This document shows, in pieces, positions 36,922 through 63,288 of a stretch of DNA of 64,000 nt. The position numbers and the translations under genes are program-made. The stretch is from a virus. The DNA lies in the IMG/VR virus record IMGVR_UViG_3300025646_000012, positions 56,964 through 120,963 of that record, one strand, 5' to 3'. How positions within the stretch are numbered: position 1 is the stretch's first letter; each line of letters begins with the position of its first letter. The notes beneath the pieces are model-generated. The model saw nothing but the letters and a program-made list of their open reading frames with translations. It was not told where the DNA came from and searched no databases.

Positions 36922-37905
36922 ATGAAAAATGTATTTTTACTAACTGCAGCACTTTCCCTTGCAGCAACTACCGCTTATGCTCGTGATAATATCCAAATTA
37001 CTGGATCCAGTACTGTTCTCCCATATGCAACTATTGTTGCGGAAGCATTTGGTGAAAACTTTGATTTTCCAACGCCAATTGTAGAAGGTGGTGGTTCTGG
37101 TGCCGGTCGTAAAAGACTTTGTGAAGGTGTAGGTACTAATACTGTTGATATTGCTAACAGTAGTTCTAAAATGAAAGAAGAAGAATGGGCAGCTTGTGAA
37201 GCAGCAATTGGTCCAATCACAGAAGTTCGTATTGGTTATGATGGCATCGTATTTGCCAGCCGTAATGAAAATCAAGGTTTTAATAACTTAACTCCAGCTC
37301 ACATCTACCTTGCTATCAGTGCAAGATCAACTGTTACTAACTGGCAAGAGGTTGACCCATCACTTCCTAACCGTGACATCTTAGTCTATATTCCAGGAAC
37401 CAAACACGGCACACGTGAAGTGTTTGATATTAAAGTAATGGAAGAAGGCTGTAAGATGGTAGGGACCTACGATCTTATTATGAGACAAAATGGTGGTGAT
37501 GCCAAGGCTGCTACTGCTGAATGTGTTACAGTTCGTACAGACAGTGTTGCAATAGATATTGATGGTGATTATACCGAAACACTTTCCAGAATGGAAAATA
37601 ATACCAATGGTATTGGTGTATTTGGTCTAAGTTTCTTACTTAATAACACATCAACTCTATATGCTGCTACAATGAACGGCGTATCTGCCAGTGCAGAAAC
37701 CATTGCTAGTGGTGAATATCCTGTAAGTCGTCCACTTTATTTCTATATAAAGAATGCACACCTAGATGTAATACCTGGTTTAAGAGATTACATTCAATTC
37801 TTTATGAGTGATGATATGGCAGGACCAAACGGACCTCTAGCAGAATATGGCTTGGTATCAGATCCTGAACTGGCTGAAACTCAGAAAATGTTATCAGGTC
37901 TTTAA
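36922..37905 (+). CDS. pstS: Phosphate-binding protein PstS
   Basis: 327 residues. Signal peptide KNVFLLTAALSLAATTAYA, then ITGSSTVLPY (phosphate-binding Thr-Gly-Ser-Ser) and VEGGGSGAGRKRLCEG. It binds phosphate in the periplasm for the host PstCAB transporter. A common auxiliary gene of marine phages. It has its own PHO box upstream and a hairpin terminator downstream. Confidence 0.95.
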   Translation: MKNVFLLTAALSLAATTAYARDNIQITGSSTVLPYATIVAEAFGENFDFPTPIVEGGGSGAGRKRLCEGVGTNTVDIANSSSKMKEEEWAACEAAIGPITEVRIGYDGIVFASRNENQGFNNLTPAHIYLAISARSTVTNWQEVDPSLPNRDILVYIPGTKHGTREVFDIKVMEEGCKMVGTYDLIMRQNGGDAKAATAECVTVRTDSVAIDIDGDYTETLSRMENNTNGIGVFGLSFLLNNTSTLYAATMNGVSASAETIASGEYPVSRPLYFYIKNAHLDVIPGLRDYIQFFMSDDMAGPNGPLAEYGLVSDPELAETQKMLSGL

Positions 37906-37974: not shown

Positions 37975-38334
37975 TCAGAATGCTAGACGAGTACCGATAG
38001 TTACGTCACCGAACTCAAAGTCTGCATCAGCTGAAACTTCACCGTATACTTCTACAGCGCCATACTGATATGCGGCATCAAAATCCACACCAGTGAAAAG
38101 ATCATTGTCAGTGTTTAGGTCTAGAAGATCCCAAGTAGTTTCTGCATTGAAAGTTACGCCCCACTTTGAGAAGCCAGCGCCAGTAGTAAGATCCAAAGCA
38201 TAATCCTCTACACCAGTAGTGTAGTTAAAATCAACTTCGCCGCCGATGTTAATACCAGTGTCGCCAAGTTCCCAAGCTGAAGCAGCAGACGCTGCGCCAA
38301 AAAGTACTGCAGTTGCAAGAAGAATATTTTTCAT
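37975..38334 (-). CDS. Small outer-membrane beta-barrel-like protein
   Basis: 119 residues. Signal peptide KNILLATAVLFGAASAASA, then alternating strands (INIGGEVDFNYTTGV, YALDLTTGAGFSKWGVTFNAETTW, AVEVYGEVSADADF) ending TIGTRLAF with a C-terminal Phe, the usual outer-membrane signature. It is too short for a full porin. It could block phage receptors or change permeability. Directly downstream of the tmRNA, probably on the same transcript, with AGGGA as ribosome site. Confidence 0.75.
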   Translation of the reverse strand: MKNILLATAVLFGAASAASAWELGDTGINIGGEVDFNYTTGVEDYALDLTTGAGFSKWGVTFNAETTWDLLDLNTDNDLFTGVDFDAAYQYGAVEVYGEVSADADFEFGDVTIGTRLAF

Positions 38335-38359
38335 TTTAGTTCCCTATTGTTTGAATGAA

Positions 38360-38658
38360 AGTGCAACTTTTCTGTTTCTAGGTAAGTTGCCAACCCACCA
38401 GCATTAGGCCGCTAGGGCGTAACCTGTAGGAGCAAAGTTATCGTTTGCATTTAGTTTAATTGACCGATACGAGGTCATCCGGTAAACTCCACTCTATCTT
38501 CACACCTGTCGATCCTAATTTCGACCCCATCAAAGATACACTGCCAAACGGCGTAAAGCCTGTCCCCGTGTAACTGAATACCCTAAACAGTGTATCTATG
38601 GTGGAGTCGCTGGGTACCGCCCCCAGGTCCAGAATGTGTCCACGTCGCTTCAACGTTT
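38360..38658 (-). ncRNA. ssrA: Circularly permuted two-piece tmRNA
   Basis: Read on - strand, the acceptor piece comes first: T stem CTGGG/CCCAG with a 7-base loop, then CGACTCC-A-CCA (38609 to 38599, CCA encoded). An intervening segment follows, closed by a perfect 10-bp stem (38588-38597 with 38534-38543). The coding piece starts GGGGTCGA at 38528; GGGGTCG pairs fully with CGACTCC and includes a G3-U wobble, the alanine identity. A D-loop-like GGATCGACAGG, a pseudoknot-like CCGGATGACC region and the tag ORF (38404-38448) follow, then a hairpin at 38363-38390. Ends are approximate. This gene order (3' half first) is that of alphaproteobacterial and cyanobacterial tmRNAs. Confidence 0.9.
38404..38448 (-). 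other. tmRNA tag reading frame ANDNFAPTGYALAA-stop
   Basis: Fourteen codons from the resume codon GCA to TAA encode ANDNFAPTGYALAA. The ANDN start and ALAA end are what proteases such as ClpXP recognise in proteobacterial tags; E. coli is ANDENYALAA. The middle is longer than the E. coli tag. Confidence 0.9.
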
Positions 38659-38666
38659 ACAAGTAT

Positions 38667-38695
38667 ATTTAATCATATTACATGGTAAATGTAAA
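38667..38695 (-). promoter_or_regulatory. Promoter of the tmRNA
   Basis: On the - strand TTTACA (38690-38695), 17-base spacer, TTAAAT (38667-38672). The predicted start near 38659 fits the 5' end of the acceptor piece. Confidence 0.7.
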
Positions 38696-38732
38696 CAACT
38701 AAATTTAAAAATTATTGTGTGTATTATTTATG

Positions 38733-39017
38733 TCACAATTGATTATCATGAATATAAAGTTGAATGATTGCATAGTGCAGAATCTTCATAAGATCCTTAC
38801 GAGCATCATCACGAGTGCCTTTATTTCCATAACGATTGGAATACTTATCGACATTTCCCATACAGAAACCTGTACCGTGACCACGGTCAATGATTACTTC
38901 TGTTGATTGAATCTTGTGTTTGGAATAGTGTTGTCCATATGTACTATCAATATATTCTTGAATCTCTTGAATATATTTGCCTTCATTAAATTTATAATCA
39001 ATCATTTCATTATCCAT
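38733..39017 (-). CDS. DUF3310-like protein
   Basis: 94 residues. IQEYIDSTYGQHYSKHKIQ, GTGFCMGNVDKYSNRYGNKG and DLMKILHYAI match the DUF3310 pattern known from many phages, where it is a small helical protein, sometimes fused to nucleotide kinases. End of the operon that begins at the 40029 promoter. No RNA gene or other ORF lies between it and the tmRNA promoter. Confidence 0.78.
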   Translation of the reverse strand: MDNEMIDYKFNEGKYIQEIQEYIDSTYGQHYSKHKIQSTEVIIDRGHGTGFCMGNVDKYSNRYGNKGTRDDARKDLMKILHYAIIQLYIHDNQL

Positions 39018-61851: not shown

Positions 61852-63288
61852 TTAAGAAAACTCCATTTCAGATTTACGAGTAATACCCCAAATGAATAGG
61901 GCAATGGAAAAGGCAATTAATGTTAGGAAAATTGGACGATCAAGTAATTGATCTATATTATATAGGGTAGTTAATTGTATTGTAAGAGCTTCAAATTTGG
62001 CAGAAAGAATAAATCCAATTAGGATTGCCGGTCTACTAAATTTAAATTTCTTGCATAGTAATCCGATGACTGTAAAAATAGCAAGCACTGCATAATCTTC
62101 CCATCCACCGGTATATTGTACACATGCCCATACAACAAAGGCAAGCAGAATTGGAAAATAATACTTATATGGAATTATAGCAATCATTGCAATATATTTT
62201 GTAGCAAACAAACAAATAATACCAGTGATTAATGTTGCCCACATAAATCCATTTGTCATACTATCAAAGAATCTAGCATCATTAATTAGATCACGTGAAC
62301 CTAAATCAAACCCTACACTTGCATAGATCCCCATAAGAATGGCGGCAAATGATGCTCCAGGAATTCCAAAGAGAACCGTTGGAATCATACTGGTGGCTTT
62401 CTGTGCATTATTAGATCCTTCTGGTCCAATTACACCACGGATATTACCTTTACCAAATGGAACGTCAGGATTCTTGGTAGTTGCTACTGCTTGACCATAA
62501 GCCATCCAATCTGCCATACCACCACCGAGACCTGGTAACGCACCAATAAATGCACCAATAAAACCACCACGGAGTGCTAACCATTTATGAATCCAAACCG
62601 CTTTTATACCATCCCAGGTTTGTCTTGCATTATCTTTAATTGCCGATGTTTTGTCTCTTTTTACAAGACCTTCTAACATTTCAGGAATTGCAAATAAACC
62701 GGCGGTTACAGCAATGAGTTGTAAGCCATCGGCAAGATAATACCAACCGAATGTATATCTATCAACATTGGTTGCTGGATCAACCCCGATAAGACCGATA
62801 AATAGACCAAAACACAGAGCAATAATAGATCGAAACCACCATTTATTACTTACAAATGCCACTGTTGCCATGGCAAGGACAGTAAATGCCCAAAGTTCTG
62901 GTATACGGAATACCATAATTAATTTTGCATACCATGGTAATAGAAAAAAGACTAACGAACCCCATAGGAGTCCGTTAAGAGTGGATGTAACCACTGCTGC
63001 TGTAATAGCATATGTTGCTTTACCCTGAAGTGCCAATGGGAATCCATCAACCATTGTAGCTGCCGCAGAGTTAGCACCTGGAATACCTAGAAGGACACTA
63101 GTATAAGTATCACCAGTAGTAGAGGCAGCGACCACCGCCATTGTAAATATAACCACCGCGTAAGGATCACCAAAATACGCAAGGAAACTATAAATAGCAA
63201 TAAGGCCAGTAGTAGCACCGGCCCCGGGAATGATACCAATAACCAATCCATAGAGTGTTCCCAGTATCAAATAATATAAATCATGCAT
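61852..63288 (-). CDS. tctA: TctA-like membrane subunit of a tripartite tricarboxylate transporter
   Basis: 478 residues with about ten hydrophobic segments. GIIPGAGATTGLIAI near the start, LGIPGANSAAATMVDG, and later GALPGLGGGMADWMAYGQA, FGKGNIRGVIGPEGSNNA and MIPTVLFGIPGASFAAILMG match TctA. The usual protein is about 500 residues, so it is near full length. It would carry organic acids such as citrate across the inner membrane with TctC. A phage copy is unusual. Confidence 0.9.
   Translation of the reverse strand: MHDLYYLILGTLYGLVIGIIPGAGATTGLIAIYSFLAYFGDPYAVVIFTMAVVAASTTGDTYTSVLLGIPGANSAAATMVDGFPLALQGKATYAITAAVVTSTLNGLLWGSLVFFLLPWYAKLIMVFRIPELWAFTVLAMATVAFVSNKWWFRSIIALCFGLFIGLIGVDPATNVDRYTFGWYYLADGLQLIAVTAGLFAIPEMLEGLVKRDKTSAIKDNARQTWDGIKAVWIHKWLALRGGFIGAFIGALPGLGGGMADWMAYGQAVATTKNPDVPFGKGNIRGVIGPEGSNNAQKATSMIPTVLFGIPGASFAAILMGIYASVGFDLGSRDLINDARFFDSMTNGFMWATLITGIICLFATKYIAMIAIIPYKYYFPILLAFVVWACVQYTGGWEDYAVLAIFTVIGLLCKKFKFSRPAILIGFILSAKFEALTIQLTTLYNIDQLLDRPIFLTLIAFSIALFIWGITRKSEMEFS

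Follow-up and report, generated by a model that had tools for sequence, protein, structure and literature searches.

Introduction

In 2022 a two-piece tmRNA was described in the methylophage Melnitz, and the same study counted 402 phages with a tmRNA among 18,146 genomes, in which 133 tmRNA structures were unique; 53 of these 133 were two-piece, and 50 of the 53 were marine or aquatic (PMC9004378). Both the upkeep of the hijacked machinery and the tagging of host proteins were proposed there as functions of the RNA (PMC9004378). The tmRNAs of mycobacteriophages and of Bacillus phage G had been known earlier (PMC4131195), and the tmRNA database has entries for 79 unique bacteriophage sequences (PMC11915505). 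The tmRNA considered here, which lies in a 64,000-base stretch of viral DNA (the window), is not new in kind, since two-piece phage tmRNAs have already been published (PMC9004378).

Melnitz and the pelagimyophages HTVC008M and Mosig are, like the window phage, marine and T4-like and belong to one broad group with it; they too have a permuted tmRNA (PMC9004378) and no detected phage SmpB, and the DUF932 neighbour protein of Melnitz is 54% identical to that of the window phage. Their tmRNAs are about 44-56% identical to the window RNA, and their tags (Melnitz, ANDNYVPVDYALAA; Mosig, GEDNFALAA; HTVC008M, ANFNEYALAA) differ from the window's. Melnitz also has a riboswitch, whereas none was found in or beside the window gene; a permissive Rfam search of 38300-38780 returned neither a riboswitch nor another RNA family.

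The alphaproteobacterial two-piece tmRNA (RF01849 and RF04321; Caulobacter type) is like that of the window in gene order, acceptor and T arm, the G3-U70 pair and the encoded CCA, and it has the same ACCUxG..AACAGAA 3' motif and an ANDN-type tag ending in ALAA. It differs in that the window copy sits in a phage genome, and identity to three tmRNAs of alphaproteobacterial plasmids is about 36-40% over the parts compared. The Rhodobacterales phages DSS3_MAL1 (annotated ssrA), DSS3P8 and RcXuper also have, as here, a permuted tmRNA in a large phage with tRNA genes; they are different phages from the window's and were found by RNA similarity only. The permuted tmRNAs of RcXuper (L322) and DSS3P8 (L323) carry no annotation in their records. 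Unlike the window RNA, the tmRNAs of mycobacteriophage Bxz1 and its relatives are of the one-piece, standard unpermuted form. They are, as here, borne by a phage (PMC4131195).

Results

The final 64 kb of a virus record 120,963 bases long make up the window. Sequence reading, Rfam and ARAGORN all find in it a two-piece, circularly permuted tmRNA gene on the minus strand, running from 38720 down to 38360. Rfam matched the full alpha_tmRNA model (RF01849, model positions 1-355) with 114.7 bits against a cut-off of 50 (E = 1.5e-30) and the full tmRNA_permuted model (RF04321) with 102.2 bits against a cut-off of 47 (E = 8.6e-19), and ARAGORN placed a gene of class tmRNA* (permuted) at 38313-38693 with the tag ANDNFAPTGYALAA. 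Because two Rfam models score far over their cut-offs and ARAGORN makes a tmRNA* call, a chance match is ruled out. An earlier note, made from the sequence alone, had proposed that the phage encodes a permuted tmRNA and had named the alpha_tmRNA threshold as a check; the score passes that threshold, and the proposal is supported by it and by the structural selection seen in relatives, the type being alphaproteobacterial. The alpha_tmRNA model stretches the 5' end to 38720, and the coordinates of that note are otherwise good.

The order of the gene is permuted in that the 3' half stands ahead of the 5' half on the minus strand, with an intervening segment between the acceptor halves. The acceptor piece, i.e., the 3' half of the tRNA-like domain, is placed by sequence, Rfam and comparison at 38599-38661 (-) and comprises the T arm (CTGGG/CCCAG), the strand CGACTCC, the discriminator A and CCA. 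The other acceptor strand, GGGGTCG, belongs to the coding piece, which the same three lines of evidence place at 38404-38528 (-) up to the tag stop, and which also holds the D-arm region, an upstream region and the tag frame. Together GGGGTCG and CGACTCC form seven pairs including G3-U70, followed by A and the encoded CCA, and the window tmRNA has both the alanine identity pair G3-U70 and the CCA end. The intervening segment, a spacer of 70 nt for which excision is expected, lies at 38529-38598 (-) and is delimited by sequence, fold and relatives; it is closed by a 10-bp stem, AGATACACTG/CAGTGTATCT, and with its flanks folds to -28.5 kcal/mol against -18.0 in shuffles (z = -4.05). The tag reading frame GCAAACGATAACTTTGCTCCTACAGGTTACGCCCTAGCGGCCTAA at 38404-38448 (-), which is backed by sequence, ARAGORN and codon variety in relatives, gives ANDNFAPTGYALAA with a degradation-type ending and then the stop (TAA). 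At 38360-38390 (-) the comparison of relatives points to a 3' terminal helix, GCAACTT ... AAGTTGC, around ACCTAGAAACAGAA. The earlier note had described the half order, the seven-pair acceptor stem with its G3-U wobble and encoded CCA, the T stem, the tag frame ending in TAA and the perfect 10-bp stem around the intervening segment; all are present in the sequence, the order and the tag are returned by ARAGORN too, and the fold agrees with the closing stem.

A promoter at the right place had also been claimed. The candidate returned by a scanner, TTTACC-16-TATACT at 38662-38689 (-), matches at 9 of 12 positions, and the region holds as many such sites as shuffles do. An alternative register, TTTACA-17-TTAAAT, lies where relatives have TTGACA and TATAAATA or TATATATA. 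In many relatives TTGACA is accompanied by TATAAA- or TATATA-like boxes, near-perfect in some, and the first promoter box is mostly 63-68 bases upstream of the T-arm GGAC. Best promoter scores average 9.37 of 12 against 8.14 in shuffles, and 98 of 148 genes score at least 9. The window site, weak as a match when taken alone, is backed as a putative promoter by its position, which is common to relatives.

For the comparison of relatives, 151 distinct permuted tmRNA genes were gathered from viral contigs and phage records. Stem covariation was read in the 115 of the 151 in which both halves can be located by fixed motifs, and the percentages apply to this set; the locating motif required G at positions 1-2 and either G or A at positions 3-4 of the 5' strand and left U70 free. 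Pairing is kept at every position in 96-100% of these sequences and G3-U70 is invariant, while four combinations are seen at acceptor pair 5 (G-C, C-G, T-A and A-T), mainly three at pair 6 (T-A, C-G and A-T), and each of the four Watson-Crick forms at T-stem pairs 1 and 2. The stem closing the spacer has a mean of 10.6 bp against 5.5 in shuffles (at least 8 bp in 77 of 82 relatives), and the 3' helix around ACCUxG..AACAGAA reaches at least 5 bp in 34 of 40 distinct motif-bearing genes, with 20 different stem sequences that covary. Synonymous codons vary within the tag frame, with the stop always at its end, in 70 relatives with ANDNFAPxxYALAA-type tags, a sample mostly picked by tag, which shows codon variety and is no unbiased test. 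The RNA closest to that of the window (L211) is 85% identical to it. In a quick FastTree analysis the window tmRNA falls inside a 47-member group (support 0.906), with only three cellular tmRNAs in the data set; these are alphaproteobacterial and plasmid-borne, and are too few to judge the origin of the group or host-to-phage transfer. By this sequence comparison the window tmRNA is a maintained gene and no remnant.

The window comes from a 121-kb contig of a T4-like marine phage. The DNA polymerase encoded there has its match among T4-like phages (PHROG 262), the best named record in tblastn being Phage C48C1 (56%) with cyanophages next, and C48C1, Melnitz and the Sinorhizobium phages phiN3 and phiM12 have the nearest counterparts of the DUF932 protein encoded close to the tmRNA. 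The start of the record carries at least 17 tRNA genes within 3.3 kb (L350 6-3248), an array that may run past the contig end. Neither SmpB nor ClpP was found in the record, which may be incomplete, so host partners are assumed for the tmRNA; SmpB was likewise found in none of the 21 records searched. Ten relative contigs were picked solely by their DUF932 gene, three more in the same search being picked by tmRNA, and nine of the ten have a permuted tmRNA over the cut-off, the tenth giving a weak match of 27.7 bits. The distance from the tmRNA to the DUF932 gene varies among relatives. Permuted tmRNA is present in Melnitz, HTVC008M, Mosig, DSS3P8, RcXuper and DSS3_MAL1; C48C1 and phiM12 gave no match, so not every related phage depends on the gene.

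Several other genes in the window were noted. Directly after the tmRNA, a small ORF at 37975-38334 (-) encodes 119 aa with a signal-peptide-like start; it had no match in Pfam or PHROG, and a strong terminator-like hairpin lies 3' of it. A periplasmic-binding-protein-like ORF (PBP_like_2, 172.8 bits) lies at 36922-37905 (+), and its superfamily includes phosphate-binding PstS proteins, which are carried by some marine phages. The 478-aa protein encoded at 61852-63288 (-) matches Pfam TctA with 326.6 bits, an unusual cargo for a phage; TctA is a membrane subunit of tripartite tricarboxylate transporters.

A scan for the tag as ANDNFAP[TS]GYALAA, with near codes included, covered a collection in which each bacterial or archaeal species is represented by one genome; it gave a single match, on a contig that bears the title of a Muricauda MAG (L202). 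The other ORFs of that contig, judged from their translations, we take to be T4-like replication genes and an Hsp20-like ORF, and the contig is probably that of a phage binned with a bacterium. The same tag pattern is found in 49 loci gathered here, including the Muricauda-titled contig and the window's own record. With tens of viral contigs against one phage-like contig in the bacterial and archaeal collection, the tag type appears to be phage-associated.

Discussion

Judged from its sequence and that of its relatives, the window gene is very probably complete and functional, coding for a two-piece tmRNA of the alphaproteobacterial type in a T4-like marine phage, with extra rescue capacity as the likely benefit. 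The selection on structure in the comparative data makes ribosome rescue with host SmpB the best reading. Transcription would start at the gene's own sigma-70-like promoter and yield a single precursor, from which host tRNA-processing enzymes would cut out the 70-nt hairpin spacer, with RNase P acting at the 5' side and the 3' end trimmed to CCA. Two pieces would remain, joined by the acceptor stem and an adjoining helix. Charging by the host alanyl-tRNA synthetase would go through G3-U70, host SmpB would carry the tmRNA to ribosomes that have stalled on broken mRNA, and addition of the tag ANDNFAPTGYALAA would free the ribosome and make the fragment a target of host proteases. The phage would probably gain added rescue capacity in infection, as part of a translation kit with the tRNAs, and this benefit is favoured because the tRNA array accompanies the gene and all the parts of a full tmRNA are kept.

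A more tentative idea, which we hold to be possible and rather doubtful, concerns the clade as a whole. The tmRNAs of these phages may be a lineage born in phages, whose tag, ANDNFAPxxYALAA, is its own and unused by bacterial hosts, and the gene may be near-core because infection or RNA-cutting host defences stall many ribosomes. If this were true, the tag would mark the proteome of infected cells in a phage-specific way.

The association of the tag type with phages in the collections scanned, and an ALAA end as in degradation tags, would also suit a role in which the phage tmRNA mainly tags and destroys host proteins, or imposes a tag specific to the phage, so that amino acids are supplied for phage synthesis rather than ribosomes kept free, and host-protein tagging has been proposed for Melnitz (PMC9004378). 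We consider this unlikely as the main role, since trans-translation deals with any stalled ribosome, regardless of where the protein comes from, and selectivity for host proteins would need timing or another factor, of which none was seen; moreover, the tag resembles ordinary alphaproteobacterial ones, e.g., ANDNRAPMAMAA on a Pseudorhodobacter plasmid. That the RNA is an inhibitor or decoy, titrating host SmpB and blocking host trans-translation, is very improbable: the TLD-only tmRNA of mycobacteriophage DS6A does resemble a tmRNA-inhibiting molecule (PMC4131195; PMC11915505), but the window gene keeps a reading frame, resume region, stop codon, 3' helix and alanine identity pair, all needless for a decoy. 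Least credible of all is a functionless captured host remnant, e.g., from integration at ssrA, for although tmRNA genes are common integration sites of mobile elements (PMC11915505), this gene is complete, covaries across many phages, is in nearly all the relatives sampled, and has its sole tag match in the bacterial collection on a contig with T4-like genes. Both the decoy and the remnant were rejected on the covariation and completeness of the gene.

Taken as a working tmRNA that rescues ribosomes with host SmpB, the window gene is further evidence that T4-like marine phages in which no SmpB is detected are commonly equipped with a ribosome-rescue RNA. Its tag is distinctive enough for mass spectrometry of infected cells to reveal the proteins to which the phage RNA adds it.
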